Positions 19,729 to 36,181 of a DNA stretch of 40,361 bases are shown piece after piece. The position numbers were made by a program, and so were the translations under genes. Source of the stretch: a virus; the IMG/VR virus record IMGVR_UViG_3300011116_001074, positions 1 to 40,361 of that record; one strand, given 5' to 3'. A model generated the notes under the pieces. The model was not told where the DNA came from and did not search any database. It saw only the letters and a list, made by a program, of their open reading frames with translations. How positions within the stretch are numbered: the stretch's first letter is position 1; each line of letters begins with the position of its first letter.

Positions 19729-20828
19729 GTTAAAGTTCTTGCTGCTATATTAGTATGAAAAATATTTAAATTATATACGCTACTAGTATCACCAAAATCC
19801 TGAATAGCTTTTCTGATTTGTTTGACATAATAACCTACATGTGGACCGTAAGTAGCTGGACCTCCTTGATAAACTAGACCCAATAATAAAGGAACAACTA
19901 AATTATTACTATTTTTATATAACATTATAACTGGACTACCAGAATCCCAAGAAACTAAATTTTCATGAAATATTGCATGACTAGGATTAATAAAATATTC
20001 TGGGTATGATGTGAAGAACAATTCATTCTCTGGATACGCACCAGACCGACTTAATTCGTGGATAAGTGTTTTTTCTTCTTGATCTATTATTATTACTGGA
20101 ATTCCTCCAGGATAATACCCACCAGTATATACTAATGGCTTTTTTGATGGAGGATCTGAATTATTATAAAATGAATTATAACAAAAATAAGCTATTGATA
20201 TTGGCGTAATAGAAGGATGAACATCTGTGGCAAGTCGAACAACAACCAGATCAGTATTATCGATTTCTGTGCTACCAGCAACGCTAACTCCCTTTATTTC
20301 ATTGTTTGAGTTTAAAAAATAAAGAGAATTTCCAGCACGTGGATAAAATGTACCATGCTTAGTGTGAATTAGGTGTTTTGGTGTTATTAATGCTCCGTGT
20401 CCAGTTCCGACATCTTGTGCATTACCGACATGAGAATTGGAATTAAATAAAGGTATTGCGGTTAGTGTTATTCCGCTTAACCATCCAGTGGAAGCGTAAG
20501 TTGGCGTTGGAGTATTCCAACCATTTCTATATTGTTTCGCAGAAGCACTTAAGCCAGTAATTCTTGTATCTATTTCTTTACTATAAGAAAATGAAACATT
20601 CAGATCAGTAATATTATAATCAGAACCAGACAATGTTATTGGACAATATTCGTTAGTTTGAATTACTGACGGTGGTCTGTTGTCTGTTTCTAGAATAGAA
20701 TATTTGCGTTTATCTTTAATTACCACTATAGGTAAATCTGCAACTAAACGAGGATAATAAACACCACCAATATTATATGTGTATACTGGAGTTGCCGTAC
20801 TTATAATTTCTAATATTTTTATTTTCAT
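19725..20828 (-). CDS. Fibre-module protein with trypsin-like serine protease domain
   Basis: 367 residues. A divergent S1-type triad is visible in order: ALITPKHLIHTKHG (His158 in the TAAHC position), NTDLVVVRL (Asp193) and SWDSGSPVIM (Ser296 in the GDSGGP position). The first 30 residues (MKIKILEIIS...YYPRLVAD) resemble the N-terminus of the next upstream gene product, suggesting a common docking peptide on the virion. The gene lies between adaptor/IPT genes and the collagen-like fibre, so it is probably a virion component that cuts a host surface protein or matures fibres. Substitution of a Gly by Ser in the GDSG-G motif is unusual, so activity needs proof. Confidence 0.72.
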   Translation of the reverse strand: MKIKILEIISTATPVYTYNIGGVYYPRLVADLPIVVIKDKRKYSILETDNRPPSVIQTNEYCPITLSGSDYNITDLNVSFSYSKEIDTRITGLSASAKQYRNGWNTPTPTYASTGWLSGITLTAIPLFNSNSHVGNAQDVGTGHGALITPKHLIHTKHGTFYPRAGNSLYFLNSNNEIKGVSVAGSTEIDNTDLVVVRLATDVHPSITPISIAYFCYNSFYNNSDPPSKKPLVYTGGYYPGGIPVIIIDQEEKTLIHELSRSGAYPENELFFTSYPEYFINPSHAIFHENLVSWDSGSPVIMLYKNSNNLVVPLLLGLVYQGGPATYGPHVGYYVKQIRKAIQDFGDTSSVYNLNIFHTNIAARTLT

Positions 20829-21660: not shown

Positions 21661-22905
21661 TTATCGATGTACGGTTTTTCTGCTTTTAAACTTCTTTTTT
21701 TGCGCTGGAAACAGAGCAGGTTTATGATTCTTCTTTTCACTCTGCTTTGCAGCCTGTTCGTCCATTTGACGAATAGATTCCAGTTGATTGGTTTGCTCAA
21801 AGAATTTTAGATATTGACCGAGATTTGTCTGAATTCGTTCTAGTTGATCTGCTGGTATTAGATTTTCTGTAATTAACTTCTTACAGGCAGCGTATCCCAT
21901 ATGAGGTTTTCCTGCATAGAATGCAGTGGCAGCAATTTCATCTAAAATAGCATACTTGTAGACATCTTCTGAAACAAACAAGATATCATCCTTTGGGTAC
22001 GGAATATCAAGAGCCATTTTTGCGTATAAGAAAGCTAGTCGTGGATGGTTCATCATTCTGTAGACTCGTGCAATCTGGTGAAGAGGCTCTGCACGATGAG
22101 GACGAAGCTCCCACGCTTCCAGAAATCCTTGCTGAATCTCGATCCACGGCTTGTTGGCAAGACCACGACACATGGCAATACGAAAAGCTGAATAGTATTG
22201 CTCTTCTTCCCAACCACCCATCTCTACACGCTTTCTGTAGGCGACTTCTGCTTTTTCCCATTGCTGAGAGTCAAAATAGCTCTGAGCCAGATAGAATTGG
22301 TATCTTACATTGTCTGGTTCCTTGAGCAGAACTTCTTCCAGCATGATGGCATCTCGTTTATACTTTTCGATAGGATCAATACCTACATTACGTGCTCCCA
22401 TGGTACGAGCAACAATTTTATATTTTCCTTCAAGTTTTCCTATTTTTGGAGTAGCAGTTTCCGCATTTGGCTTTGTTGGATACTCGTGAAGAATGCCTTG
22501 ATACCTCCAGCCAATACCTGTGCGGAAAATCTGAGTTCTCCACCAAGTAAACTCGCCACGACCAAACGCAAGAGCAAATGCTTCAACTTCCCCTACATTA
22601 AAGGGAAACTGAAACTCTCCTTCCACATAGTCGTCGGCATCAATCATCCATGCCCAGTCTGCCTTGCCGTCACAGAGTTGTAGAGCTTCTGTGCGGTTAT
22701 CGCCAAAACTTACCCATGGGCGTTCATGAAGTTCTCCAGGAATACCTTTTTCGGCAAAGAAGTTTTTAATTAATTCTTGAGTTCCGTCTGTGGAACCAGT
22801 ATCCACAATGACCCAGTAATCCACATACTTATAGATGGAATCCAGGCATTCTTTGATAATGTGAGTTTCGTTTTTAACAATCATCGATAGGCATAATTTA
22901 GGCAT
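21661..22905 (-). CDS. Family 2 glycosyltransferase with C-terminal TPR-like region
   Basis: 414 residues. The GT-A fold starts with LCLSMIVKNETHIIKECLDS, VIVDTGSTDGT and MIDADDYVEG (DxD at 89-91), which bind the nucleotide sugar and metal. From about residue 190 the protein is helical, with repeated patterns of the kind VRYQFYLAQSYFDSQQWEKA, typical of tetratricopeptide repeats in bacterial GT2-TPR proteins. It transfers a sugar to an unknown acceptor. An 11-bp tandem repeat spans the start codon. GGAGAT provides a ribosome binding site. Its composition is closer to the phage backbone than to the AT-rich genes upstream. Confidence 0.88.
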   Translation of the reverse strand: MPKLCLSMIVKNETHIIKECLDSIYKYVDYWVIVDTGSTDGTQELIKNFFAEKGIPGELHERPWVSFGDNRTEALQLCDGKADWAWMIDADDYVEGEFQFPFNVGEVEAFALAFGRGEFTWWRTQIFRTGIGWRYQGILHEYPTKPNAETATPKIGKLEGKYKIVARTMGARNVGIDPIEKYKRDAIMLEEVLLKEPDNVRYQFYLAQSYFDSQQWEKAEVAYRKRVEMGGWEEEQYYSAFRIAMCRGLANKPWIEIQQGFLEAWELRPHRAEPLHQIARVYRMMNHPRLAFLYAKMALDIPYPKDDILFVSEDVYKYAILDEIAATAFYAGKPHMGYAACKKLITENLIPADQLERIQTNLGQYLKFFEQTNQLESIRQMDEQAAKQSEKKNHKPALFPAQKKKFKSRKTVHR

Positions 22906-22922: not shown

Positions 22923-23708
22923 TTATGTATAATGAATTTGGTTAGAAAGTTTTTTAAATGTTTCCATAATTCCGTTTTTTAATCCAATAAATTTTATAGA
23001 TGGTATATCGCTATTACCACAATAAAATTCTAATTGAGTTTTATTTTCTAAGATAATTGATGTTTTGTGTGTATCCAAGGAATTAATCATATTGGCTATA
23101 GTCTTTAAAGTATATTTTTCTTCATAACAGCAATTTATATCCTTTAACGGATCCTTATTGTTTATATAATATTCTACTATAGAGATTAGGTCTTGCATAT
23201 AAATAAAATCCATAATTTTATTGGCATGAATAATCATTGGTTCTTTTTTAATGTATCTAATAATATTAGCTTTGATAAAGCTGGTGGATAGTTCATTCTC
23301 ATCAAATACACCAAATATTCTTAGATTATAAAAATTTTCTGTATTTTGTACAGATTCTGCTATTTTGGTTTTACTCGTTCCGTAAGGAGTATCTTTCATA
23401 AATGTTTCTGCACCAGAACCAAATGATATTAATTTTTTAAAGTTATGTTTATTAATAAGTAAATTGTTATACATTGCTACATTTTGATGAAATATAGAAG
23501 AATCATCTTGACGTAATCTACTACCACCCACAATAGCAGTATGCAAAACCACATCAAAGTGTCTTTCGTTAAACCATTCGCAAGTGGCATCATAATTACT
23601 CAAATCAAAATTTTGTCGTGTTATTGTGGTTATATTATGATTGTCTTTGAACTTACTATAAAGACTTTTAGCAATATAACCGTTTCCGCCTGTTATTAAC
23701 ATATTCAT
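22923..23708 (-). CDS. NAD(P)-dependent nucleotide-sugar epimerase/reductase (extended SDR)
   Basis: 261 residues. A Rossmann start, MLITGGNGYIAKSLY (GGxGYIA), and the catalytic pair YGTSKTK (YxxxK) define an extended short-chain dehydrogenase. SFGSGAETF supplies the upstream catalytic Ser. The overall look is that of the RmlD/GDP-fucose-synthase type, which reduce or epimerise 4-keto sugars. Next to an acetolactate-synthase-like enzyme, it could do the final keto reduction of a branched sugar (as YerF does in yersiniose synthesis); this is inference. The ATG overlaps the TPP-enzyme stop (ATGA). Confidence 0.82.
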   Translation of the reverse strand: MNMLITGGNGYIAKSLYSKFKDNHNITTITRQNFDLSNYDATCEWFNERHFDVVLHTAIVGGSRLRQDDSSIFHQNVAMYNNLLINKHNFKKLISFGSGAETFMKDTPYGTSKTKIAESVQNTENFYNLRIFGVFDENELSTSFIKANIIRYIKKEPMIIHANKIMDFIYMQDLISIVEYYINNKDPLKDINCCYEEKYTLKTIANMINSLDTHKTSIILENKTQLEFYCGNSDIPSIKFIGLKNGIMETFKKLSNQIHYT

Positions 23709-25471
23709 TTCATTATTTCTTTCATTTCTGTTGTATCAAGATACGGAAACATATTTTCTAACGACGTTGATACAATTTTGCCTTCAGCATCTTTAGAGCT
23801 CTGTACTCGTGGAATTAATAATTGATTTTCTGTCATCATAATTTCACATAATACTGGACCCTCTGTATTTAAAACTAAATTGATATTATCTTCTAGTTCT
23901 GTGTTATTTGATAATTTAAAAGTCTTGAATCCATATGCTTCTGCTAATTTTGTAAACTTAGGAGAGCTAATTCCACTTTCGTTATTAGAACCTATGTAAT
24001 TTCCGCTGAATAGATTGTCTTGCATTAATGTTATAGCTAAATAACCATTATTATTTAATACAAAAATCTTCAAAGGTATATTGTTATGAATTACTGTTTG
24101 TAGTTCTTGAATATTCATTTGTAAACCACCATCACCAGAAATAAGAATAATATCTTTTTTAGGATTTGCATAATATGCTCCAATAGCTCCAGGCAACCCA
24201 AATCCCATAGAACAACAAGCACTAGAAGTAAATAATCTATTGTTGCCATTCATTTGTAATGATTGCATAGTACAAGTATAGCTAGTTCCCATATCTGTTA
24301 CTATTATATTATTATCAGTTAAATTCGATGATAATACTTCCATAAAGTAAAAAGAATTAATATTATTAATATTTGTTTTATATTCTGGTTGGAATACTGG
24401 ATATTTTTGTTTCCAGGATTGGGTTTTATTTATCCAATTGTTCCAGTTTGGTATACTTTCATTTTTTAATCTTAATAATATTTTGGGAAAAAATACATTT
24501 AAATGTTCTACTATAGGATAATCTATTTTAATAGTAGGTTTTTTTATTTCGTTTTCGTCTATATCAACCATTATTTTGATCGATTTTGGTGAAAACAAAT
24601 CAGATCTATAACCAATATTAGGAATAGACATTCTGCTTCCTAAAATTAATAATAAATCTGCATTTTGAACTGCAAAATTTGCTGCACGTTCTCCTAATAA
24701 ACCAAAATTTCCAACAAATAATGGATCTTGTTGATTCATTAAATCTTTAGATATCCACGTAGATATTACTGGTATTTGTAATTTGGTTTTTAATTCAATA
24801 AATAATTTTTCTGTTTGTGATAAATGTATGCCATTACCTGTAATAATAACAGGAGATTTAGCTTTTAAAATAACATCAATTATGTCTTCTAAATTATATT
24901 CAATTGTGATGTTTTTTATTTCAGTATTAATTTCTTTTATGTTTATTTTACTATTTTGTATATCTAATGGAATATCTAACCATACTGGACCTTTTCTACC
25001 AGACACTGCAATATTATAAGCGGTATCCAAATGAAATTGTAAAGTATTTGGATCTGTTACTTGAACTGCATATTTAGTGATGGGTTTTACCATACTAATA
25101 ATATCGCATTCTTGTACTCCTAATTGTCTTAATTTTATATTTTCTAAACTATTAAGAGATTGATTTACTGGTACTTGACCAGAAATTATAATCATTGGAA
25201 TAGAGTCTTGATAAGCACCCAACACACCAGTAATAGTATTAGAAGAGCCAGGACCATTCGTAACTAATACGCATGCTGGTTTATTTGCTATTCTCGCATA
25301 TCCTTCTGCTGCCATGGCACATGCTTGTTCGTGATAATTACAGATATATGTAAATGGTTTTTCTCTAACGGAATTTAGTAAATGAGCAGCTGCTCCTCCA
25401 GATACTGAAAAAATAGTATCAACACCTTTAGATAATAGATAATCAAATATATAATCAGAAACTTTAATCAT
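23705..25471 (-). CDS. Thiamine-diphosphate enzyme, acetolactate-synthase-like (O-antigen cluster type)
   Basis: 588 residues. It has the full three-domain layout of acetolactate-synthase relatives. The N-terminal PYR domain holds the catalytic glutamate E48 (NYHEQACAMAAEGYAR) and the TNGPGSSNTITG loop. A central domain follows, and the C-terminal PP domain carries GDGGLQMNIQEL to LNNNGYL (about 445-475), the thiamine-diphosphate/magnesium motif. It could be amino-acid metabolism, but it lies inside a sugar cassette and resembles enzymes of O-antigen loci. Of these, YerE transfers a two-carbon unit from pyruvate to a 4-keto-3,6-dideoxy sugar. I therefore infer branched-chain sugar synthesis. 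It is very AT-rich and overlaps both neighbours. Confidence 0.85.
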   Translation of the reverse strand: MIKVSDYIFDYLLSKGVDTIFSVSGGAAAHLLNSVREKPFTYICNYHEQACAMAAEGYARIANKPACVLVTNGPGSSNTITGVLGAYQDSIPMIIISGQVPVNQSLNSLENIKLRQLGVQECDIISMVKPITKYAVQVTDPNTLQFHLDTAYNIAVSGRKGPVWLDIPLDIQNSKINIKEINTEIKNITIEYNLEDIIDVILKAKSPVIITGNGIHLSQTEKLFIELKTKLQIPVISTWISKDLMNQQDPLFVGNFGLLGERAANFAVQNADLLLILGSRMSIPNIGYRSDLFSPKSIKIMVDIDENEIKKPTIKIDYPIVEHLNVFFPKILLRLKNESIPNWNNWINKTQSWKQKYPVFQPEYKTNINNINSFYFMEVLSSNLTDNNIIVTDMGTSYTCTMQSLQMNGNNRLFTSSACCSMGFGLPGAIGAYYANPKKDIILISGDGGLQMNIQELQTVIHNNIPLKIFVLNNNGYLAITLMQDNLFSGNYIGSNNESGISSPKFTKLAEAYGFKTFKLSNNTELEDNINLVLNTEGPVLCEIMMTENQLLIPRVQSSKDAEGKIVSTSLENMFPYLDTTEMKEIMK

Positions 25472-25857
25472 AATTTATAAACAAAATTTAAAGTATCATT
25501 CCAATTCTCAAATCGATAGGCATTATCATCAACATATAACATTGCTCTTGGTTTTTCTGAAGTAATATCACTAATATAATCTAATATATTATGTTTAAAA
25601 AGCCACTCTTCTACTAATTGTTTTCCAGTTTTTCCATTTACTAAAGGTCTGTCTGGTTTTGCTTTAGCAGTAAAAATAATAATTTTATATTGTTTAGATA
25701 AGGTTTCTATTGCTTGCAAAGAACCAGGGATTGGTTCTCCATAGCAAGTTCCATCGTGCCATCCTTTATTAGCACAATGAATCACCCCATCAAAATCAAT
25801 AGCTATGTTGTTTTTGTCATTTTCGAAGCCTGGAGGAAATTGTATGTTATTTTTCAT
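25468..25857 (-). CDS. Small HAD-superfamily hydrolase
   Basis: 129 residues. Motif I is AIDFDGVIH (DxDG), motif II is IIFTAK, and motif III/IV is KPRAMLYVDDNAY, the usual small HAD phosphatase arrangement with no large cap. It probably removes a phosphate from a small metabolite, perhaps a sugar phosphate or nucleotide by-product of the surrounding pathway. Context, not sequence, suggests the substrate. Both ends overlap neighbours, so it is a fixed member of the operon. Confidence 0.82.
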   Translation of the reverse strand: MKNNIQFPPGFENDKNNIAIDFDGVIHCANKGWHDGTCYGEPIPGSLQAIETLSKQYKIIIFTAKAKPDRPLVNGKTGKQLVEEWLFKHNILDYISDITSEKPRAMLYVDDNAYRFENWNDTLNFVYKL

Positions 25858-26530
25858 TTTTATGAATCGTTAATAAAATTGTTCCAGAAATCACACCATC
25901 TAATTCTTCTGATACTTGTTTTATAATTTTTGCAAATCCAACATCCCCTGGTATTGTGACACAATGAGATATTCCATCAATATTTCTTATCATGCCACCT
26001 TTAAGAAATACAATTAAATCTTCATCTTGTTTATTATTAATTATGCTGATATCATTTATAGTTTCTATTGTTATAGTGCAGTTTGCGAAATGATAAGTAT
26101 TACTATTATTTATTTCGGGTTCATTTATCCATAAACATTGATTGGTTTTTAATTCCTCAAATGTACTATCTTCGTATGGTTTATGAGAACGACCATATTG
26201 ATCGTTTAATCTAACTAAATCATGCTTATCTTTTGGTGTTTCGATTTCAAATATCCAAGCACCCTCATCGGACAATGCTTTAGTAGAATGAAATAATCCT
26301 CGTCTTATCATAACTTTATCTAACGAGTTTAATACACGACTATCTGCTAAAAATGATACTTGAGCTTTCCCGTCCAATAAAACTAATCCAGTAGTCTTTT
26401 TAGGATGACAGTGCATAGAAGTGCTTTGATTGGGAGCAATATATAAAAACCATAAACCAACATCTTCATTTTCGTAGGCTAAGTATTCAAATCCCCATGG
26501 TTTTTTTACAATATTAACATCATAACTCAT
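25847..26530 (-). CDS. Cupin-domain protein (sugar isomerase-like)
   Basis: 227 residues. The start KPWGFEYL and MHCHPKKTTGLVLLDGKAQV recall mannose-6-phosphate-isomerase-type cupins, with H-x-H metal ligands and a later His in GLFHSTKAL. A second, weaker cupin-like half may follow from about 140 (TYHFANCTITIE, VTIPGDVGFAK), so a bicupin is possible. It could isomerise or epimerise a sugar in the pathway or simply bind one. The TAATG overlap with the upstream PfpI-like gene shows tight coupling. Confidence 0.72.
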   Translation of the reverse strand: MSYDVNIVKKPWGFEYLAYENEDVGLWFLYIAPNQSTSMHCHPKKTTGLVLLDGKAQVSFLADSRVLNSLDKVMIRRGLFHSTKALSDEGAWIFEIETPKDKHDLVRLNDQYGRSHKPYEDSTFEELKTNQCLWINEPEINNSNTYHFANCTITIETINDISIINNKQDEDLIVFLKGGMIRNIDGISHCVTIPGDVGFAKIIKQVSEELDGVISGTILLTIHKNEK

Positions 26531-27078
26531 TAACTTTTAGTTCTTTCATTATGGACCTGATAACCAACACGTAACCACTCTCCCATAAAATCGTAATGGG
26601 GGCAAGATATAATATTGCCATCAATTACTACAGGCTCTCTGCTGTAAGTAGCACCTGCATTTTCAATATCAACATCAATAGAATAATAACCAGAAACTGT
26701 TCTGTCCTTTAGTATCTTAGCAGAAATTAATAGTTGTGCGCCGTTACATACCGAAAGGATTGTTTTATTCGCTGCATTCCATTCTTGTACAAATTTAAGG
26801 ACTCCCTTTTCTTGTCTCAATTTCTCTAATGCCTTAACTCCACCAGGAATTATTAAAAGTTCGTAATTATTGAGGTAGTTTTGCCGTGTTGTTTCGTCTT
26901 CAAAAATTATAGTCTCAACATCACATAACATATGAGTGCCTAAACTACCCCAAATCTTACCAGCTTTATTAGCCATCAGTGTCACATTAAATCCCGCTTC
27001 CTTTAAACTATAAAAAGGATAAATCAATTCGTGATCTTGAAATTTTTCCCAAGTAATAATTAATGCGTTTTTTACCAT
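26530..27078 (-). CDS. DJ-1/PfpI-family protein
   Basis: 182 residues. LIIPGG near 75-80 and the nucleophile elbow SVCNGAQLL (C111) define the DJ-1/PfpI fold, and E17 (QDHELIYPFYSL) sits where the conserved Glu of the family lies. The residue after the Cys is Asn in place of the usual His, so protease or deglycase chemistry may differ. Members are deglycases, glyoxalases or amidases. Inside a nucleotide-sugar operon it may act on a reactive keto-sugar intermediate, which is speculation. It overlaps the dehydratase gene. Confidence 0.8.
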   Translation of the reverse strand: MVKNALIITWEKFQDHELIYPFYSLKEAGFNVTLMANKAGKIWGSLGTHMLCDVETIIFEDETTRQNYLNNYELLIIPGGVKALEKLRQEKGVLKFVQEWNAANKTILSVCNGAQLLISAKILKDRTVSGYYSIDVDIENAGATYSREPVVIDGNIISCPHYDFMGEWLRVGYQVHNERTKS

Positions 27079-28022
27079 ATAAATTTATCCTTATAATATT
27101 CTACTATATTTTTAATTTCTGTATCAAAATGTTTAACTGGAACCCAACCAAGAGATCTTAATTTAGAATCGTCTAATGCATATCTTACATCCTGTCCGAC
27201 TCTATTGCAAGAGAAATCTATGTATTTTTCAATATTTTTTTCATCTATATTATTTGAAATTAATATTTTCTTTACTGTATCTATGTTACTTTGTTCAAAA
27301 CCACCGCACACATTGTATATTTCGTTAGTAATACCACATTCTATTATTTTAATTATTGCAGAGGCAGTATCAGCAGCATGAAGCCAATTTCTAATCGGAG
27401 ATCCTCCATTATGCAATGGTATCTTTTTTCCTAGATGAAGATATTTGCAAACTTTCGGTATAAGTTTTTCTACATATTGACCAATTCCATAATTATTTGT
27501 TGGTCTCACAACAACATACGGAATAGCATATGTCCTTGCCCATGCCAAAATTAACATATCCGCTGCTGCTTTAGTTGCAGCATAAGGGTTTGATGGTTTT
27601 AGTAGATGAGTCTCTGTGTGTGCGCCTTCTTCGATATCTCCATAAACTTCATCAGTAGAGAAGTGAAGGAGAATTGGTTTTTTTCCACTTTCTTGTCTGT
27701 AGTTCTTTATGAGTTCAAGGATATTATGAACTCCATTTATATTTGAGTGGACAAAATCATCGCTGTTTGCGATAGAGTTACCAACGTGAGTTTCTGCCGC
27801 AGTGTTGATGACGTAATCACAGTCATACAAAAACTTCAAATCATTGATATCGCAGTGTACAAAGGAGAAGTTTTTGTGTTGTTTAAACTCTTCTAAAAGT
27901 TCATCATTGGCGGCGTATGTGATCTTATCAACTCCCTTCACATACCATCCCCTTTCTAAACATTGTCTAGTTACATAAGAACCAATAAACCCCAAACATC
28001 CTGTCACATATACTATTTTCAT
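27072..28022 (-). CDS. NDP-glucose 4,6-dehydratase (RmlB-like)
   Basis: 316 residues. The extended SDR carries VTGCLGFIG (cofactor loop 7-14), AAETHVGNSI, FSTDEVYG with the TDE catalytic trio at 123-125, YAATK (Y147, K151) and RPTNNYG...QYVEKLIPK, the RmlB signature for dTDP-glucose 4,6-dehydratase. The product is an NDP-4-keto-6-deoxy sugar, which would feed the E1-type 3-dehydrase encoded at 30421. The nucleotide (dTDP, CDP or other) cannot be read from sequence. It is part of the overlapping cassette operon. Confidence 0.88.
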   Translation of the reverse strand: MKIVYVTGCLGFIGSYVTRQCLERGWYVKGVDKITYAANDELLEEFKQHKNFSFVHCDINDLKFLYDCDYVINTAAETHVGNSIANSDDFVHSNINGVHNILELIKNYRQESGKKPILLHFSTDEVYGDIEEGAHTETHLLKPSNPYAATKAAADMLILAWARTYAIPYVVVRPTNNYGIGQYVEKLIPKVCKYLHLGKKIPLHNGGSPIRNWLHAADTASAIIKIIECGITNEIYNVCGGFEQSNIDTVKKILISNNIDEKNIEKYIDFSCNRVGQDVRYALDDSKLRSLGWVPVKHFDTEIKNIVEYYKDKFIW

Positions 28023-28024
28023 GA

Positions 28025-28870
28025 TTATTTTTTTTCTATAAAAGATATATTATGATTGAATGTTTCTTCACTAATACCACGTCTTGATCTAAATATAACT
28101 GTTTTGTCTGTAACTCTATCTCCCGAATGGGTAATATGAAAAGGTTCCAAAATATTATTATAATTTAAAATACATTCTTCTGGATTTCTATCATGATTCA
28201 GAATATTTAAATTCAATTCTCTAGCAATTATGCTAAATAAGGTTTGATCGTGTCTTCCAGTTCCTAAACCATTAGGACATGTTCCATCGTCCATGAAGTT
28301 TCTAATTTCTTTAGAAAGTTCATATAAAGGATTAATGTATTTTTCCTTCATCTCTTGGCACAATCCCTGGAATCCTGCATCTATTCCTAACGTGTTATCA
28401 TCAAGAATCCATTGTTTATCTGGAGTATTTAGGTTTAATTTATTAATTATATAGCCTGGAGTCATCCATTTTATAGAATGACCACAATCTGTTAGGAAAT
28501 ATTTATGTTCTTTGATATGATCAAATAGGCTATTTAGCGGTTTTAAAATTGTACTTCCTGAATCAAGATATAAAACATACGGAAACATATCTAATGCTTG
28601 TTTTATTACAACTGCTTTCCAAGAAAAAAGACCTTTGATCCATCTACCATTATTGCAATGTATAGGAGTTATTATTAGTGGATGTACCTTTTCAACATCA
28701 TAAATACTAACTTTATTAATAGTTTTTAGTTTATTTATTTGTTCGGATGTTAATCCCAAATCAAATACCGCTATTTGATTTAATTCGTTTTTATTGTGCT
28801 TGAATATAGAACCTATTAAATTTAATAATACTGGGTAGTGGTTGCTGTCTGCTGCTGTACAAAAATACAT
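28025..28870 (-). CDS. Glycosyltransferase-like protein (GT8/DUF1647-like)
   Basis: 281 residues. The start, FCTAADSNHYPVLLNLIGSI, and AVFDLGLTSEQINKL are typical of GT-A proteins annotated as GT8-like or DUF1647. VLYLDSGSTI takes the DxD position, with Ser between Asp and Gly, and GRHDQTLFSIIA is the usual C-terminal acceptor/catalytic segment. The sugar and acceptor are unknown. AAGGATT precedes the ATG. It lies directly upstream of the dehydratase. Confidence 0.72.
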   Translation of the reverse strand: MYFCTAADSNHYPVLLNLIGSIFKHNKNELNQIAVFDLGLTSEQINKLKTINKVSIYDVEKVHPLIITPIHCNNGRWIKGLFSWKAVVIKQALDMFPYVLYLDSGSTILKPLNSLFDHIKEHKYFLTDCGHSIKWMTPGYIINKLNLNTPDKQWILDDNTLGIDAGFQGLCQEMKEKYINPLYELSKEIRNFMDDGTCPNGLGTGRHDQTLFSIIARELNLNILNHDRNPEECILNYNNILEPFHITHSGDRVTDKTVIFRSRRGISEETFNHNISFIEKK

Positions 28871-28873
28871 ATA

Positions 28874-29653
28874 TTAATCCTTCCATTCTATAATAGTGTT
28901 AGTAGTTCCCCAATAACCAGTTATTAAATTTGATATGTGAATAGGAAAATTTTCTTTTGGTAAAGAATTTATATATTTCCACCTTTTATGAATTTGTTCG
29001 TGTCCACTATACCATGCATCTTTAAATTTAACATCCTTTTCAAAATAATAATTAAAGTGTTTAAATGTAGGTGTTAGTATTTTGGCTGGTTTGTGTTCAC
29101 AATTAAATAAAGTTGGTGGTTCATGGGTTACAAAATGTTCACCTTCCCAATCCCAAATACGGCGGATTCCGCTAGAGCCTGCCCACTCTCCTACTGCGCA
29201 TAAGGTTTTACCACAATAACATTCTGACAAAAATGCTCCTACTTTAATATTATTTTCGGACATTTCCTTTTCTGCTTGATTCATTCCTTCTGATGTCCAC
29301 TGTTCATCAATATCGAATTGCCAAAGAAAACATCTATCTGTTATTTTTTTTACTTCGTCAATTGCACGATTAACTTGGTGGTCTTTAGAATTCCAAAACC
29401 CATTTGAAGAAACATATATTAATTTTGATTCTTGTTGTGATAATTCTTCTAAAAATTCTTTTGTTCCGTCTATACTACTCCCATTATTGTGATATTCTGG
29501 AGGCATTTGCTTACACCATTTAGTGCTTCCGTTTGATTGAGAAGCACCTTCAACGACAATCCACTTATCACAATTATTCAATATAAATCTAAATTGGTCG
29601 TTGTGTAATAAATGGTGTAGACCATTAAAAATAATACTAAAAATAATTCTCAT
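28874..29653 (-). CDS. Glycosyltransferase-like protein (GT17-like)
   Basis: 259 residues. The pattern WIVVEGASQSNGSTKW, IDGTKEFLEEL, KDHQVNRAID and LWQFDIDEQW (DxD) resembles GT17 N-acetylglucosaminyltransferase-like proteins common in marine phage and bacterial glycan loci. A C-terminal HFNYYFEKDVKFKDAW segment is typical of the group. Strong ribosome binding site AGGAGA inside the preceding gene's end. The assignment to GT17 is from recall of the family pattern. Confidence 0.68.
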   Translation of the reverse strand: MRIIFSIIFNGLHHLLHNDQFRFILNNCDKWIVVEGASQSNGSTKWCKQMPPEYHNNGSSIDGTKEFLEELSQQESKLIYVSSNGFWNSKDHQVNRAIDEVKKITDRCFLWQFDIDEQWTSEGMNQAEKEMSENNIKVGAFLSECYCGKTLCAVGEWAGSSGIRRIWDWEGEHFVTHEPPTLFNCEHKPAKILTPTFKHFNYYFEKDVKFKDAWYSGHEQIHKRWKYINSLPKENFPIHISNLITGYWGTTNTIIEWKD

Positions 29654-30407
29654 CTATATCTCCTAATGATTTTACTGTTTGAAATTTTGAACCATAATTA
29701 AACGTTTCTGCTGGACTCCATACTACAAAATGTTTAATATTAGCTATCGTCCATTTATTCATACACAGATGAAGAGGACCTGTATTAACTGCAATTATGC
29801 TTTTAACATTTTTTGAAAGTTTTGCTATTTGTACAACAGATAGATTATAATCCATAGTACAAGGAACATTATTTACTTTTCTTGTTGTGATAAATTTTTT
29901 ATTTGTTGCTTTTAATTTTTGAATTAAATCATCACATTCCTGTTCAAAATTTGGAAAAGGTATACTCATATTTTGACTATTTATGAATAAATATTCATAC
30001 ATTTCGTCATGAATACATGTCTCTTCTAGAGTCTTTTGATTATAAATTAAATCTTCTTTTGAAGTAAATGGACATTCAATATTCATTATCTTAGATAATA
30101 ACTGTGCTAATATTAAAAAGAATGTTCCTTGGTCTGAATCTTTTCCGTATAATATAGCAGAATCTCTACAAATTTGTCCATAGTCGTAAGCACCTATCCA
30201 AGTATTTATTGGCAGTTCTTCAGAATCAAAAGCATTTACTAAATCAACTCGATCATCGCCTATTAATTCTTTTAATTGACTATGATATTCTGATTTACAT
30301 AAAAAATTAAATTTAATATTATTACGTTTTGTAGCATTTATTAAAAAATGCAATGCTTCTATACAATCGCCTAAATGATAATAATTATAACAATTAATAA
30401 TTCTCAT
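29637..30407 (-). CDS. Heptosyltransferase-like protein (GT9-like GT-B fold)
   Basis: 256 residues. The start NYYHLGDCIEALHFL, with Gly-Asp before a helix, and SIIAVNTGPLHLCMN match the N-terminal and nucleotide-binding ends of ADP-heptose transferase relatives, though the protein is short. A role in LPS-type glycan assembly is plausible. A strong promoter (TTGACT-N16-TATAAT) ends only 5 nt before its ATG and there is no Shine-Dalgarno, so it may be read from a leaderless early transcript. It ends in a 17-nt overlap with the GT17-like gene. Confidence 0.6.
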   Translation of the reverse strand: MRIINCYNYYHLGDCIEALHFLINATKRNNIKFNFLCKSEYHSQLKELIGDDRVDLVNAFDSEELPINTWIGAYDYGQICRDSAILYGKDSDQGTFFLILAQLLSKIMNIECPFTSKEDLIYNQKTLEETCIHDEMYEYLFINSQNMSIPFPNFEQECDDLIQKLKATNKKFITTRKVNNVPCTMDYNLSVVQIAKLSKNVKSIIAVNTGPLHLCMNKWTIANIKHFVVWSPAETFNYGSKFQTVKSLGDIDENYF

Positions 30408-30412
30408 ACTAT

Positions 30413-30440
30413 ATTATACTCTATTTATTAAAAAAGTCAA
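30413..30440 (-). promoter_or_regulatory. Sigma70-like promoter TTGACT-N16-TATAAT inside the glycan cassette
   Basis: TTGACT (30435-30440) lies in the last codons of the E1-type gene and TATAAT (30413-30418) just after its stop, 16 nt apart. The next ATG follows the -10 box by 5 nt. It would transcribe 30407 downwards through the sugar genes. The same architecture occurs before RNase H. Confidence 0.68.
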
Positions 30441-31758
30441 GAAGAACTTTCTCAATATAATCCAATTGTTCGTCTGTAATAACTGGACTAGTTCCTAAAA
30501 AGAAAGTATCTGTTGTTATTTTTCTAGCATTTGGAAAATTATTAATCACATCTTTTTGATTCATCATTCCACTATATGCGGGTTGTAACATAATATTACC
30601 AGCAAAATAAGGTCGTGTTTGAATTTTATGGCTTTCAAAATGATCAACAATATCTATTCTTTTAAACGGACTTCCGTCCTTAATAGTTATTGCGAATGCA
30701 AACCAAGAAGGATCAGATCCTTCTGTTGCTTTTGGCAAGATAAAGTACTGATCATATTTTGAAAACATATCAAATAAACGTTTATGATTATGTTTTCGTA
30801 ATTCTATAATCTTAGGAAGTTTCTTTAATTGAGCTAAACCCATAGCTGCTTGTTGGTCTGTTGGTTTCAGATTGTATCCAATCTCATCATAAACATATTT
30901 GTGATCAAAAATTTCATTAGGTAGCGCAGGAAGCCAATTTGAAAATCTATTTTTGCATGTTCCGTTTTTAAGGAAATTTGCTTTTTGACCAACACAATAA
31001 CATCCTCGTCCCCATTCACGAAAACTTCTTGTTACAATCTCTTGTTCGTGTGTATTACAAGCAACAAATCCACCTTCTCCCATGGTGATATGGTGTGCAG
31101 GATAAAATGAACAACTAGTCATCTCTCCAAAAGAACCAAGTGGTCTTCCTTTATAGGTACTTCCTAATGCGTCACAACAATCTTCTAATAGCAATAAATC
31201 ATATCGTTTAATGATGTCCATCAATTGATCCATGTTAGGAGGATTACCTAATACATGAGCAAAGGTTATTACTCTACATCCTTCTTTTGCTTTTTGTTCC
31301 ACTTGTTCTAGATTCAAATTTAATGTATCTAGATCAATATCTACAAATACTGGTTCAAACCCTACTTGAAAAATAGGATTAATTGTTGTTGGAAATCCAG
31401 CAATTGGTGTTATTACTTTAGTTCCTTTAGGAAGATTATATAATCTTTTTGATGTAAGAGCAGACATCATAATAAGATTAGAACTACTACCGCTATTAGT
31501 AAGAATACCAAAATCCTTTCCAACATATCGTGGGAATAGTTGTTCAAAACGAATCCCATTTTGACCAAGAACTAACCACCCGTTTAGTAATGCTTTAGTA
31601 GATTCTGTATATTCTTCTGCTCCAAAATAAGGGCCAGCATATTGCACCCAGTCTTGTCCAGGAATCCACAACTTTGTTGCATTCTTTTTTTCTATAAACT
31701 CTTCAATTAATTTTAAAATTTCTTCCATATTATTACAACTGAAATATTGCTGCTCCAT
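30421..31758 (-). CDS. E1-type NDP-4-keto-6-deoxyglucose 3-dehydrase (RfbH/DdhC-like, PLP + [2Fe-2S])
   Basis: 445 residues. It belongs to the DegT/DnrJ aminotransferase fold but has the hallmarks of E1: SFYPAHHITMGEGG puts His222 where aminotransferases have the PLP lysine, and C195, C253, C255 and C268 form C-X57-C-X1-C-X12-C, matching the E1 iron-sulphur motif except for the last gap (usually 7). The enzyme removes the C3 hydroxyl of a 4-keto-6-deoxy sugar and normally needs an E3 reductase, which is absent here and may come from the host. It leads to 3,6-dideoxyhexoses such as those of O-antigens. A later ATG (31728) is also possible; neither has a clear Shine-Dalgarno. Confidence 0.9.
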   Translation of the reverse strand: MEQQYFSCNNMEEILKLIEEFIEKKNATKLWIPGQDWVQYAGPYFGAEEYTESTKALLNGWLVLGQNGIRFEQLFPRYVGKDFGILTNSGSSSNLIMMSALTSKRLYNLPKGTKVITPIAGFPTTINPIFQVGFEPVFVDIDLDTLNLNLEQVEQKAKEGCRVITFAHVLGNPPNMDQLMDIIKRYDLLLLEDCCDALGSTYKGRPLGSFGEMTSCSFYPAHHITMGEGGFVACNTHEQEIVTRSFREWGRGCYCVGQKANFLKNGTCKNRFSNWLPALPNEIFDHKYVYDEIGYNLKPTDQQAAMGLAQLKKLPKIIELRKHNHKRLFDMFSKYDQYFILPKATEGSDPSWFAFAITIKDGSPFKRIDIVDHFESHKIQTRPYFAGNIMLQPAYSGMMNQKDVINNFPNARKITTDTFFLGTSPVITDEQLDYIEKVLLDFFNK

Positions 31759-32341
31759 TACGAAGTGACCAATTCTCCCATAATAGCGTAGAAGAGGTTT
31801 TTAGTTCGTGATAATTTGCATAGTTTTTAATGTCATTTATATCATCTAGTGCAATTATTGCATTTTTGGTCAGAAACGGACAAACACATTTTAATTCTGA
31901 TTGTCCAGAAAAAGGAGAACCATCTATTAAAACAAAATCAAATTTTATATTATATTGATTGACAATATCTTCTATTGCATTTGATTTGTATTGTTGAGAC
32001 ACGGATATACACTCATCATACCAAGATCGTATTAATTCTAAAGGATACATATTTAAATTAGTTGGTGTTGTTTTGTAGAATAATTCTACTTCTGACCACG
32101 ACATCCAAGAATCAACTAACGTAGAAGTTCCATTTATTCCAATACCTCCTTTTTTTAATAAATTCATCTGATGAACATATACTCGGTCTGGGTGATTTTC
32201 TATACTAAATAGTTTTTTAGCCTTTATACATTGAGTAGATCCTTCTCCTGTACCCCCACCAATTTCTAAAGCAGTATCACAATTTTCTGAAACTGTTGTA
32301 ATAAATTTACCAAAATTATCGTTTATTGAAATTTCTATCAT
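31733..32341 (-). CDS. Class I SAM-dependent methyltransferase
   Basis: 202 residues. Motif I ALEIGGGTGEGST (24-36) binds SAM, IENHPD matches the acidic end of motif II, and FVLIDGSPFSGQ and IIALDDIND form motifs IV/VI, recalling the CmcI/TylF-type sugar methyltransferases. In this cassette it most likely O-methylates a sugar. AAGGAAAA gives the ribosome binding site. It overlaps the E1 gene by 26 nt. Confidence 0.8.
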   Translation of the reverse strand: MIEISINDNFGKFITTVSENCDTALEIGGGTGEGSTQCIKAKKLFSIENHPDRVYVHQMNLLKKGGIGINGTSTLVDSWMSWSEVELFYKTTPTNLNMYPLELIRSWYDECISVSQQYKSNAIEDIVNQYNIKFDFVLIDGSPFSGQSELKCVCPFLTKNAIIALDDINDIKNYANYHELKTSSTLLWENWSLRNGAAIFQL

Positions 32342-33013
32342 TTATATTTTCCTTTTAAAAATATACCTATCACCAATATTTCCACCAGTATGTTTTGATT
32401 CTGTATAATTATAAATTTGTTTTTCTAGTATAAAGTGTGAGGTCAAAATATCTAATTGATCGGTATTATGTCTCAAATCTAATATAAGTACTCCATCATC
32501 AGATAAAGAATTACTTAACAAATCAATATATGTACTAACTGGATAATGCCATCCACAGGATAATAATGAAAATATTACATCAAACTTAATATTAAACAAA
32601 TCTTTATAATCTGTTGTTTCATATAAATTAAGTTTATTTTCTTCTATTCCATTTAAAGTTATTGTTTCTTTTGCTGCCTGCATACTATTATAGAATTTAT
32701 AATTTTTGTGAATTCCTGAAATTTCCTCAACATTTAATTCAGTTTTATCCAAAAGATAGATATTTGTTGATTTGTATTTTTTATACAATAGAATATTAAT
32801 CAAACCTAATCCACAACCAATATCTAAAGACCTATCGCAATGAGTGGGGAGATATTCCTCAATCATATTAAAATCTTTTTCTATCATCAAATTAATAGCA
32901 TTATCAATTTCTGATTGAGTAGATTCTTTAGTTAATTCGTATTCAGTAGTTAATCTAGTTCTTTGTGGAAATAAATATTGTAAATAGTCTCTATTAAAAT
33001 TGTTGATATTCAT
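32342..33013 (-). CDS. Class I SAM-dependent methyltransferase
   Basis: 223 residues. Motif I is SLDIGCGLGLINILLY (62-77), followed by IYLLDKTEL, DVIFSLLSCGWHYP and DGVLILDLRHNTD, the standard order of a Rossmann methyltransferase. The N-terminal part is helical. It ends directly against the next methyltransferase, suggesting two methylations in one pathway. Substrate unknown; sugar modification is inferred from context. Confidence 0.82.
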   Translation of the reverse strand: MNINNFNRDYLQYLFPQRTRLTTEYELTKESTQSEIDNAINLMIEKDFNMIEEYLPTHCDRSLDIGCGLGLINILLYKKYKSTNIYLLDKTELNVEEISGIHKNYKFYNSMQAAKETITLNGIEENKLNLYETTDYKDLFNIKFDVIFSLLSCGWHYPVSTYIDLLSNSLSDDGVLILDLRHNTDQLDILTSHFILEKQIYNYTESKHTGGNIGDRYIFKRKI

Positions 33014-33014
33014 A

Positions 33015-33860
33015 TTAATCCTTGGATTCGTGTATATTCATTCCCCAATCATTTAGATTTGGTATATTGTATTTTTTTATATTTTCTTTTATAAATTTAT
33101 ACTTATAACTAGTTTTAATATCATGATTATCGTAAATTTTAGGACTAACCTTTAAAGGAATATCAAATTTTTCATAAGACCAATCAAAATTATTAACAGA
33201 AGCATCATATGCTGTTACTGGTATAGTTTCTGTGTTATATTTATTTCTTGTTATATAGTCTGTAATTTTCCAATAATATTGTTTAACTGCAACTGTTGGC
33301 TTGTCTAACCATTGCAAGTGTGCTATGAATAAAGCAGGAGCATTAATCCTTCCTTGTTTCGAAGGCACAGGCAAATGCTCAGAATGCATTTGCATTGATT
33401 TAAATATACCTCTACTATTATATGAGGCAACTCGATCTTTTAAATTATATTTCCAAGGACCATCAGTTCTGATTTGATTTTTATCTGTATATTGAACCCA
33501 CTGCAAATGAAGTAATGTATCTTTATTGTTTTCTAAAATTTGATCCAATTCTTGTTTTGACAGGGTACCATCTAGATATTCATCAGTATCTAAACATATA
33601 ATTTTTCCAGAATGTTTAAAAGCTTCATCATATAAATTTTGTCTTGTATTTGATTCTGTCGAAAGTTCGGTATCTGTTTGATTGCTTGGTAATACATTTA
33701 ATATATTATATTTTTCTTTATTTTCCATTAAATATTCATATGTTCCATCTGTAGAACGATCATCCATGAATACAAATGCATCCGCATATTTTTGCCAAAG
33801 AGGTAACATTTCTTTGATAAGAAAAAGCTCATTTCGTGTCATAGTAATCTGAATTATCAT
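33015..33860 (-). CDS. Family 2 glycosyltransferase
   Basis: 281 residues. TMTRNELFLIKEMLPLW, FMDDRSTDGTYEYL and IICLDTDEYLDG (DxD at 91-93) give a clear GT-A family 2 enzyme. No TPR region is present, unlike the gene at 21661. The C-terminal half carries many aromatic and basic residues, as expected for acceptor binding. The ATG overlaps the stop of the GT10-like gene (ATGA). Confidence 0.82.
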   Translation of the reverse strand: MIIQITMTRNELFLIKEMLPLWQKYADAFVFMDDRSTDGTYEYLMENKEKYNILNVLPSNQTDTELSTESNTRQNLYDEAFKHSGKIICLDTDEYLDGTLSKQELDQILENNKDTLLHLQWVQYTDKNQIRTDGPWKYNLKDRVASYNSRGIFKSMQMHSEHLPVPSKQGRINAPALFIAHLQWLDKPTVAVKQYYWKITDYITRNKYNTETIPVTAYDASVNNFDWSYEKFDIPLKVSPKIYDNHDIKTSYKYKFIKENIKKYNIPNLNDWGMNIHESKD

Positions 33861-34711
33861 TCAATGATTCCTATAATTCTTTCTATAATATTTTCACAAT
33901 ATTTCTTAGCTTCTTCAAAATTTTTATTAATCTTATCTAAATTTTCTTGATAATACTCTTCTGTATATTTTGTTACTATAATGTTTTCTGCTTTAATCCA
34001 GTAACTTGTATCAAAATACTCTGATATATTTGGACATCCCCAATAAATAGGAATTGTTTTTGTGATTAAACAGTCTATAAGTTTTTCTGTGAAATAATTA
34101 GGTTCCTCAGAACTTTCAACAACCACAGAATACATTGAATTAAATAAATGAATTTTATCATCATTTGGTAATTGATTTTGTGCTAATACACCATATTTCA
34201 TGAGTGGAAATCTGGTAGAAGAGAAAAAATTTAATTTGCCCTGTATCTTGTCTTTAAGACTCCATATAGTATGTCTAACACTATAACCAGGTTTACCTTC
34301 AAGATTTCCACAAACCATACTAATACTATTATTCTTTACTAATTTACCTAATTCTTCTGTATATTTTCCAGGAGCATCTGGATGATGTGGTGATTTATTT
34401 AGCCAAGTAGTTCCATAAGGCATTTTATATGCATTAGAACATGATTCTAATACTCTAGGACTAGAAGTAATAATAGCAGTATAATAATCTTTATTTTTTA
34501 TAACATGATCAGCAGTTTCCACCCAACTTGATGTAGATGGTTCGTTACAATGAACAAATATTTTTTTTGCTGCATCCGAATAAAATTTAACTTCTCCGCC
34601 TGGTCTTTCGTTTTTACCAAATCGAGTAAAGTGAATTTCATAAAATTCTGAAAGATCTGGTATTTCAGATTCTTGTATAATGTAATCTGCATTAAGAACT
34701 AATGGTTTCAT
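33857..34711 (-). CDS. GT10-like (fucosyltransferase-family) glycosyltransferase, copy 2
   Basis: 284 residues from the ATG at 34711, which overlaps the upstream stop as ATGA; an ATG 5 codons earlier exists. The C-terminal signature YSVVVESSEEPNYFTEKLID then TIPIYWGCPNISEYF is that of alpha-1,3-fucosyltransferases (GT10), which use GDP-fucose or related donors. The N-terminal half is less conserved. It is adjacent to a second GT10-like gene with little similarity outside the motif, so the two probably use different acceptors. Donor is not known from sequence. Confidence 0.8.
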   Translation of the reverse strand: MKPLVLNADYIIQESEIPDLSEFYEIHFTRFGKNERPGGEVKFYSDAAKKIFVHCNEPSTSSWVETADHVIKNKDYYTAIITSSPRVLESCSNAYKMPYGTTWLNKSPHHPDAPGKYTEELGKLVKNNSISMVCGNLEGKPGYSVRHTIWSLKDKIQGKLNFFSSTRFPLMKYGVLAQNQLPNDDKIHLFNSMYSVVVESSEEPNYFTEKLIDCLITKTIPIYWGCPNISEYFDTSYWIKAENIIVTKYTEEYYQENLDKINKNFEEAKKYCENIIERIIGIIE

Positions 34712-35565
34712 TTTAATATATTCCATAAATAATCATCAGCAAGTTTCATATCTCTAACTAATTCTAAATTAGCATTTACTGCTCTTAATTTAGATTCATA
34801 TAATTCAGTAGTTAATGATTCCATAATTTCTTGTTCTTTGCCAACTTCTAGCATAATTATACCATCAGATTTAAAGAAGTCAAGTAATTTCTTTGATCCC
34901 CAGTAAATTGGTATAGTTCCTGTAGCAAAACAATCAGTAACCTTTTCGGTCCAGTATGAATCGTAGACTCCATTCTCCATAACAATACTAAATCTATAAT
35001 CTTTTAAACCATCGATTTTAGTGTTCCATGGATTTTGATGATCTATTACAGTTCTTGATGTTCCGTGTGCTCCACCAAACACACTAAAACCAGCGTCTAG
35101 AGCTAGTCTTGCAATTCTATGTCTATGAACATGCCCCTCAGTCATTAGTTTAGGTGAACAAAACATTGAACATAATTTAGTTTTTGTGTACACTTCCCAT
35201 TTGTCTTTAGGTACCCAAGGATAATTACTTCCGTTAGGACAATAAACAAATCGTTTATCTAAATTAATTAGTTCTTGGTCACATGTAAAGATTTTTGTAT
35301 AATAATTTTCAAATAACATTTTGTAATTATGAATCAAAAATGCGTATACATTAGGAACAATATACTTGGATTCGCATACCCATCCAAAACGTTTTTCTTT
35401 TGGGGTACTATCTGGTTGCATTAATAGACCTTGATCTATGTGTACAATCCAATCGCCCATGCTAGTAACCCAATCAAAATCTTTTGGTTTTATGTTAGAG
35501 CAAGACGAGTATTCTGGGTCAAACGGTAATCCTATGCCTCTTACTTTGTTCCTGGGCTCTGCCAT
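34708..35565 (-). CDS. GT10-like (fucosyltransferase-family) glycosyltransferase, copy 1
   Basis: 285 residues. The GT10 signature is FSIVMENGVYDSYWTEKVTD then TIPIYWGSKKLLDFF (192-231). The N-terminal half is Trp/Tyr rich (DWVTSMGDWIVHIDQG), which may shape the acceptor site. The gene begins inside the end of the glycosyltransferase at 35541 and overlaps copy 2. Two tandem GT10 enzymes suggest a multiply decorated glycan. Fucose itself is not proven. Confidence 0.82.
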   Translation of the reverse strand: MAEPRNKVRGIGLPFDPEYSSCSNIKPKDFDWVTSMGDWIVHIDQGLLMQPDSTPKEKRFGWVCESKYIVPNVYAFLIHNYKMLFENYYTKIFTCDQELINLDKRFVYCPNGSNYPWVPKDKWEVYTKTKLCSMFCSPKLMTEGHVHRHRIARLALDAGFSVFGGAHGTSRTVIDHQNPWNTKIDGLKDYRFSIVMENGVYDSYWTEKVTDCFATGTIPIYWGSKKLLDFFKSDGIIMLEVGKEQEIMESLTTELYESKLRAVNANLELVRDMKLADDYLWNILK

Positions 35566-36179
35566 GCTATAAGTTCCTCATTATATCCTAATTCACGTAA
35601 AGATTGCTTTTTAGATTCCACATCCGCTAAACCCATAAGAATTACTGTATTCTCGTTCTCATCACCAGGCCAAACACAATACTCTGGACCAATAAATTTC
35701 ATATGAAAGTTTTCCTGTCCATGAAATTTTTGAAGAATACCAATCAATGCTTCATGATCAAACCATTGTCCTCCAGCTTCTATTTGACGAGCCATAAACA
35801 TCCAGTGCTGGAGAAAATCTAATACTTTGCTATTAAATGCTAGGTATATTGGAGACGCTTTTGCTGCATGAAGCTTGGTTGTTGAGCAAGCAACAGCAAC
35901 GTCAGTTGTTCCAGTAAATAGATCAAATACATCTGGTGTTTTACGAATATAAGAATCAATATCAAGCCATACCACTGGTTCTTGTTTTTCTACTAGCATT
36001 TTATAAATGAATTGAGGTTTGCTCAAGCAATTCTTTTGGTATGATCCTAAAGATGCCTTTTCTCGTATATCGGCTGGCACTTTAAAATGTGCCAACTCTT
36101 GTTTTAAACGTTTTGCATGATCGCTGTAATATGTCGATCCTTCTAAATCACTATAAAAACTAATCACTTGTGTTTGCAT
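35541..36179 (-). CDS. Putative nucleotide-diphospho-sugar glycosyltransferase
   Basis: 212 residues from the ATG at 36179. A longer frame to 36317 exists, but its extra 46 residues (Cys/Arg/Ser rich) lie over the regA gene and look like out-of-frame translation. VISFYSDLEGSTYYSDHAKR, EPVVWLDIDSYI (DxD) and GQWFDHEALI form a GT-A-like pattern seen in phage and capsule glycosyltransferases, but I cannot place the family. It starts 2 nt after the regA stop, so the glycan cassette is continuous with the clamp-loader operon. Confidence 0.68.
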   Translation of the reverse strand: MQTQVISFYSDLEGSTYYSDHAKRLKQELAHFKVPADIREKASLGSYQKNCLSKPQFIYKMLVEKQEPVVWLDIDSYIRKTPDVFDLFTGTTDVAVACSTTKLHAAKASPIYLAFNSKVLDFLQHWMFMARQIEAGGQWFDHEALIGILQKFHGQENFHMKFIGPEYCVWPGDENENTVILMGLADVESKKQSLRELGYNEELIAWQSPGTK

Positions 36180-36181
36180 AA

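Follow-up and report, generated by a model that had tools for sequence, protein, structure and literature searches.

A phage gene cassette predicted to build a nucleotide-linked 3,6-dideoxy C-branched sugar, with a carboligase slot exchanged among viral relatives

Results

A gene run for a probable branched deoxysugar in a virus record

We analyzed a 40,361-base virus record (IMG/VR IMGVR_UViG_3300011116_001074; the whole stretch is called the window hereafter) and found that its minus-strand genes at 22923–31758 probably encode the central part of a pathway to a nucleotide-linked 3,6-dideoxy-4-C-branched hexose, the branching step and donor genes of which are exchanged in related phages. The product is most likely a deoxythymidine diphosphate (dTDP)-3,6-dideoxy-4-C-branched hexose. 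A preliminary description of this DNA had placed a 4,6-dehydratase (27072–28022), an E1-type 3-dehydrase (30421–31758), a thiamine diphosphate (ThDP) enzyme (23705–25471), and a short-chain dehydrogenase/reductase (SDR; 22923–23708) in one overlapping operon, and we recovered all four there, on the minus strand. Open reading frames (ORFs) across 22923–31758 follow one another without a break, with overlaps or gaps of at most ~17 bases, and the wider run extends from 36317 to 21661 with neighboring ends overlapping or nearly touching. Three further genes, encoding DJ-1/PfpI, cupin, and HAD-like proteins, lie between the dehydratase and the ThDP enzyme and are part of the set. The window is linear and probably a fragment, and genes without a place in it may sit elsewhere; it also encodes T4-type replication proteins (DNA polymerase, DnaB-like helicase, ribonucleotide reductase, clamp, and clamp loader).

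The dehydratase is of the dTDP/UDP type

The RmlB-type NDP-glucose 4,6-dehydratase (27072–28022) scored 301 bits with the dTDP-glucose model TIGR01181 versus 70 bits with the cytidine diphosphate (CDP)-glucose model TIGR02622, whose cut-off of 278 bits was not reached. It carries the [ST]DE...YxxxK signature of RmlB. In a published motif table, [ST]DE marks dTDP- or uridine diphosphate (UDP)-glucose dehydratases and [ST]DK marks CDP-glucose dehydratases (PMC8987622). Alignment showed T123, D124, and E125 in 120/120 viral relatives, with lysine in the last position in bacterial RfbG references. No glucose-1-phosphate cytidylyltransferase scored above cut-off in 35 related contigs, several of them >100 kb, and neither RfbF nor RfbG was encoded at the 17 close viral loci (carboligase identity ≥50%). 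Based on the TDE signature, the TIGR scores, and the absence of linked CDP-glucose genes, we rejected a CDP pathway for this gene set, and with it the CDP-linked, yersiniose-like chemistry to which the preliminary description had likened the operon. Of the two remaining nucleotides, we infer dTDP rather than UDP.

The DegT-family gene encodes an E1-type 3-dehydrase

The protein encoded at 30421–31758 is an E1-type (RfbH/AscC-like) NDP-4-keto-6-deoxyhexose 3-dehydrase. It passed the NCBIfam cut-off for RfbH (NF011936; 473.9 versus 423 bits), and its best solved relative was Yersinia E1 (PDB 3bcx; 367 bits). When all viral relatives with ≥50% identity were aligned (n = 127), H222, which replaces the lysine that binds pyridoxal 5′-phosphate (PLP), and the four [2Fe-2S] cysteines C195, C253, C255, and C268 were present in 127/127. 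A histidine in place of the lysine, together with Fe-S cysteines, sets E1 apart from aminotransferases (PMC8987622). The preliminary description had set its proposal against two ordinary readings, an aminotransferase here and an acetolactate synthase at 23705–25471; the former is ruled out by H222 and the four cysteines.

In other complete branching cassettes, a His-type DegT enzyme without the Fe-S cysteines stands in for E1 (L092:6333-7472 and 15 similar loci). One example is closer in sequence to E1 than to ColD, and these enzymes are perhaps reductase-independent 3-dehydrases.

The ThDP enzyme belongs to the JanthE branch of YerE-like carboligases

The ThDP enzyme (23705–25471) contains all three TPP-enzyme Pfam domains and the ThDP motifs E48, G446-D447-G448, and N474. 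Against solved structures, it scored 388 bits with JanthE (8rph), 249 with PpYerE, and 244 with Escherichia coli acetohydroxyacid synthase (AHAS). A fold search with its AlphaFold model (predicted local distance difference test (pLDDT) score, 91.7) returned JanthE chains as the first six matches (E = 5e-63, template modeling (TM) score 0.94), and AHAS ranked after them (E about 1e-49, TM score 0.86). Phylogenetic analysis split AHAS from the YerE-like group with 99% SH-aLRT support, and the approximately unbiased (AU) test rejected trees that forced the phage clade with AHAS (p = 1.4e-8 and 2.6e-9), both results being subject to long-branch caveats. At the position of JanthE P293, Pro284 replaces the arginine of the AHAS RFDDR motif, and proline is found in 17/17 close viral relatives. 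The top NCBIfam name was acetolactate synthase, below cut-off (375 versus 538). The tree, the fold search, and the Arg-to-Pro change rule out that identity; the second ordinary reading thus fell as well, at AU p values of about 1e-8 and with JanthE as the nearest fold.

On sequence grounds, the enzyme is a YerE-like ThDP carboligase of the JanthE branch and is predicted to accept ketones. JanthE, YerE, and ErwE couple acyl anions to ketones (PMC12247030, PMC12188165), and YerE and ErwE act on CDP-4-keto-3,6-dideoxyglucose (PMC12247030). The additional genes of the cassette (DJ-1, cupin, and HAD) suggest that the acyl donor is something other than plain pyruvate, and the two-carbon branch implied by the comparison with yersiniose is not supported. 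No close carboligase was found in cultured phages, where the best matches resemble bacterial ilvB.

Viral relatives share a fixed frame with an exchangeable slot

We then compared the gene neighborhoods of viral relatives. Among the 17 viral loci with a carboligase of ≥50% identity, E1 was found in 16, RmlB in 16, SDR in 16, DJ-1 in 15, cupin in 17, and HAD in 13. About 16 further viral contigs share the syntenic set of the window, and many more share its frame, so the gene combination is not due to chance. Across all viral E1 loci, E1, RmlB, and SDR are constant, a frame carried by T4-like phage contigs, and the genes between them vary. Pfam annotation of this slot revealed YerE-like carboligases accompanied by DJ-1, cupin, and HAD; by PanB; by acetaldehyde dehydrogenase and 4-hydroxy-2-oxovalerate aldolase; by an HpcH aldolase (with HAD, or with SDR and dehydroquinate (DHQ) synthase); or by NeuB (with or without HAD). 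Elsewhere, the slot holds enzymes of other superfamilies, either aKADH2 alpha/beta or a split transketolase. These three types are the superfamilies reviewed for sugar C-branching, and ketone coupling by split-gene transketolases has been proposed but is untested (PMC12247030).

Complete E1+RmlB+SDR clusters contained a ThDP carboligase in 60/60 cases (43 YerE-like, 8 aKADH2, 6 split transketolase, and 3 with two types); this set, non-redundant at 97% for E1, mixes loci found via E1 and via the carboligase. Among loci found via E1 with ≥6 kb downstream, a sample unbiased by the carboligase, 55/59 had one, and two of the four exceptions carry a carboligase elsewhere on the contig. Viewed from the other superfamilies, split-transketolase loci had RmlB in 22/22, SDR in 20/22, and E1 in 16/22, and aKADH2 loci had them in 66/70, 68/70, and 43/70, respectively. 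At the 3-deoxygenation step, the 191 RmlB+carboligase+SDR loci had an E1-type enzyme (154), only the His-type without cysteines (16), or neither (21, some of which are cut by contig ends); a Lys-type aminotransferase alone occurred in 0/191. These locus counts still include some redundancy, with 204 RmlB-containing loci reducing to 141 clusters at 98% identity.

4-Hydroxy-2-oxo acids are reported donors of ErwE. Several partner genes in the slot make known or plausible 2-oxo acids, and since these donor-type genes differ between cassettes, we infer from gene content that different donors would give different branches. On balance, we favor the view that aquatic T4-like phages share a plug-in cassette, in which a fixed 4,6-dehydratase/3-dehydrase/SDR frame is combined with an exchanged carboligase and its own donor genes, yielding a different C-branched dTDP-sugar in each phage.

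Partner genes and bacterial relatives of the carboligase

The DJ-1/PfpI-family protein (26530–27078; PF01965) has conserved C111 and E17 in alignments and is proposed to supply the donor. The HAD-like phosphatase (25468–25857), recognized by sequence and a match to PHROG 1238, may dephosphorylate the donor; its family adjoins HpcH aldolase and carboligase in other phages. The cupin protein (25847–26530) has a predicted cupin fold (pLDDT 91.6), and a fold search returned only generic cupins (oxalate decarboxylase and phosphomannose isomerase), from which its function could not be read. The SDR (22923–23708; PF01370, with Y109/K113 and S98) is proposed to reduce the newly formed branch ketone, and its family is kept across YerE-like, aKADH2, and transketolase cassettes. 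The label "RmlD-like" given in the preliminary description was correct as to SDR and loose as to RmlD, since Pfam Epimerase fits better (60 versus 32 bits).

Our bacterial sample comprised 80 fetched loci, 66 with carboligases mostly 39–45% identical and the closest 14 at 45–52%. The 66 loci contained RfbF in 35, RfbG in 37, and E1 in 33, with the family names confirmed for two loci. The closest 14 form a group of cupin::carboligase fusions, 8 of which have a recognized DJ-1 neighbor. Fusion of the cupin to the carboligase N-terminus was read directly in five loci (L003, L008, L009, L015, and L070), and the phage cupin aligned with the cupin part in L003, L008, L015, and L070. Because related carboligases occur as bacterial cupin fusions, the cupin and carboligase of the phage probably work as a pair that predates its cassette.

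The cupin::carboligase module occurs in Omnitrophota and others, mostly by DJ-1, and nearby genes encode radical SAM, B12-binding, and glycosyltransferase proteins; in L003, an altronate/galactarate dehydratase-type gene adjoins the fusion.

Proposed route

In the route that we propose, the RmlB-type enzyme, placed by family and signature, would dehydrate host dTDP-glucose to dTDP-4-keto-6-deoxyglucose. Most hosts make dTDP-glucose for rhamnose, and a carried nucleotidyltransferase would be needless because a dTDP route would draw on this pool. The E1-type enzyme, equipped with the active-site residues described above, would remove the C3 hydroxyl via pyridoxamine 5′-phosphate (PMP) and [2Fe-2S], with electrons presumably coming from host ferredoxin or flavodoxin reductases. 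The YerE/JanthE-like enzyme would decarboxylate a 2-oxo acid and add the acyl anion to the C4 ketone, leaving a tertiary alcohol that bears a keto branch; the position of the DJ-1, cupin, and HAD genes and the way in which donor genes are interchanged among sister cassettes suggest that these proteins make or tailor the donor. The SDR would reduce the branch ketone, and the neighboring glycosyltransferases would attach the sugar to a host surface glycan or to phage fibers. In related phages, dehydration, 3-deoxygenation, and ketone reduction would remain constant, with the branching step and donor genes swapped as a unit.

Evidence against the route and alternative explanations

Several observations, in addition to the long-branch caveats, weigh against this route. 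An E3-type protein (NAD_binding_1, PF00175) was found in 0/36 contigs including the window, these contigs being fragments, and no nucleotidyltransferase (NTP_transferase) is present in the window, with 1/36 related contigs encoding one. The preliminary description had listed both as missing. For the nucleotidyltransferase this is borne out; the E3 is likewise missing from the window, although the gap is smaller than it seemed, since the 80 bacterial carboligase loci showed no E3-like ORF either (in a regular-expression motif scan that could miss some) and the E1 homologue SpnQ, which has a dTDP-sugar substrate, works with general ferredoxin or flavodoxin reductases (PMC8987622). The dehydratase falls under the TIGR01181 equivalog cut-off (301 < 365) and is a divergent relative. 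Characterized E1 enzymes use CDP-sugars, and here E1 would act together with a dTDP/UDP-type dehydratase. Finally, the closest 14 bacterial carboligase loci lack E1, RfbF/RfbG, and a 4,6-dehydratase of this type, and the JanthE-branch carboligase of the window may use another acceptor.

A true phage yersiniose pathway, with a CDP-sugar, a pyruvate donor, a two-carbon branch, and cytidylyltransferase and E3 encoded elsewhere, would suit an E1 of RfbH type, whose known substrate is a CDP-sugar, and the frequent presence of RfbF (35/66) and RfbG (37/66) beside related bacterial carboligases. We nevertheless consider it improbable given the TDE-type dehydratase (120/120), the lack of RfbF/RfbG in the 17 close viral loci and of a glucose-1-phosphate cytidylyltransferase over cut-off in the 35 contigs, the DJ-1, cupin, and HAD genes suggestive of a non-pyruvate donor, and a ThDP enzyme closer to JanthE than to PpYerE. 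There is also a slim chance that the carboligase uses a donor and an acceptor that have no relation to the E1 product, perhaps as in the Omnitrophota cupin fusions, leaving E1, RmlB, and SDR to make a plain 3,6-dideoxyhexose. The closest bacterial carboligases, which lie beside radical SAM and GT9 genes without E1, agree with this, as do cyanophages S-H68 and RN05-S, whose E1 homologue (44%) lies in clusters without an annotated ThDP enzyme. Such separation is hard to reconcile with the 60/60 frames that hold a ThDP enzyme, with three unrelated superfamilies swapped at one slot, and this regularity argues that the ThDP enzyme acts on the product of the frame. The general annotation of both families, including the below-cut-off NCBIfam name, would instead have the DegT gene encode an aminotransferase for amino sugars and the ThDP gene an acetolactate synthase for branched-chain amino acids, two host-metabolism genes independent of each other; histidine in place of the PLP lysine, the Fe-S cysteines, the tree, the fold, and the Arg-to-Pro change contradict this, and we regard it as very improbable.

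Neighboring genes, glycan target, and host

The rest of the minus-strand run contains several candidate glycosyltransferases (GTs). Between the dehydratase and E1 lie a putative glycosyltransferase (28025–28870; assigned by sequence inspection and position), a putative glycosyltransferase-like protein (28874–29653; by position), and a putative GT9-like protein (29637–30407; by sequence inspection), none with a Pfam or PHROG match. The upstream part (31733–36317) encodes methyltransferase-like (PF05175), GT2-like (PF13704), two GT10-like (fucosyltransferase family; PF00852), and other proteins, several with weak matches; the GT10-like genes are consecutive (33857–34726 and 34708–35565, minus strand). 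At the downstream end of the run, a GT2 glycosyltransferase with tetratricopeptide repeats (21661–22905, minus strand; PF00535) has homologues close to the SDR in several related contigs. A simple hydropathy scan found no membrane-spanning stretch in the operon proteins; the enzymes that use the product are therefore presumably soluble glycosyltransferases. Their acceptor may be a host glycan, which has been proposed for pelagimyophages (PMC7029224), or the collagen-like fiber proteins encoded next door.

Directly downstream of the glycosyltransferase run, two large minus-strand genes (15454–17676 and 18094–19728) encode proteins with collagen-like Gly-X-Y stretches of the phage fiber type, which are possible glycosylation targets. 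Amid these fiber genes, a 367-residue protein (19725–20828, minus strand) has a trypsin-like appearance (TGHGALITPKHLIHTKHG, SWDSGSPV) and no PHROG match. A 669-residue low-complexity Ala/Pro/Gly-rich protein, also without a PHROG match, is encoded at 2638–4647 on the plus strand, against the orientation of nearly all large genes. A late-promoter scan with TATAAATA gave matches not above chance.

A cyanobacterial host is not shown, because psbA is absent from 24 related contigs (several >100 kb). The DNA polymerase of the window (gp43) resembles those of cyanophages, with an identity that reaches about 47% at most, and the clamp loader (gp44) is about 54–55% identical to Synechococcus, Pelagibacter, and Methylophilales phage proteins alike. 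E1 homologues at 44% identity occur in the cultured phages S-H68, S-B05, and RN05-S. The cultured cyanophages S-SM2 (L345) and P-TIM68 (L346) encode a fused aKADH2-like 'transketolase' (38%) in another context, alongside Zn alcohol dehydrogenase, kinase, and nucleotidyltransferase genes.

Discussion

The cassette resembles the yersiniose A/B and erwiniose pathways (YerE and ErwE with E1/E3, RfbF, and RfbG) in linking a 4,6-dehydratase, E1, a ThDP carboligase, and an SDR in one cluster, but differs in its dTDP/UDP-type dehydratase, its extra DJ-1, cupin, and HAD genes, its lack of cytidylyltransferase and E3, and its location in a phage genome. JanthE (PDB 8rph/8rpi/8rpj) is the closest solved structure by both sequence and fold, and its V121, P293, and Y297 are shared by the window carboligase; however, identity is about 33%, the window enzyme has a canonical GDG where JanthE has CDG, and it carries Leu at JanthE Y268 and Arg at K567. 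In actinobacterial antibiotic clusters, aKADH2 and split transketolases are the proposed sugar-branching enzymes, and both superfamilies occupy the slot in sister phage cassettes, whereas the window uses the YerE-like family and the phage slots belong to a 3,6-dideoxy frame that includes E1. SpnQ of the spinosyn pathway is likewise an E1-type [2Fe-2S] 3-dehydrase that acts on a dTDP-sugar without a dedicated E3 (PMC8987622), although its substrate is 2,6-dideoxy and no carboligase follows it. Host-recognition regions of pelagimyophages and cyanophages, also T4-like phages, hold glycosyltransferase and deoxysugar genes near fiber genes, but we did not find a C-branching pathway described there (PMC7029224).

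The preliminary interpretation, that the phage carries much of a pathway analogous to that of YerE and leading to a C-branched 3,6-dideoxy sugar, is partly supported, by the identity of E1 and the carboligase and by their linkage. It was right in kind, wrong in the nucleotide, and probably wrong in the branch, and the interchangeable slot is the more striking pattern around it.

A few bacterial O-antigens and antibiotics are known to contain C-branched 3,6-dideoxy sugars. We found nothing on phage C-branched sugars in the open-access literature, and a 2025 review points to viruses as a place where such enzymes have yet to be explored (PMC12247030). Phage cassettes offer many new carboligases, including split transketolases. 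If our interpretation is correct, a compact and widespread phage C-branching system would tie the diversification of surface sugars to phage biology, through receptor change, superinfection exclusion, or virion decoration. Exchange at the slot would let viruses alter the sugars placed on cells or on themselves, and phages would serve as a reservoir of branched sugars not yet known, with selection favoring their variation.

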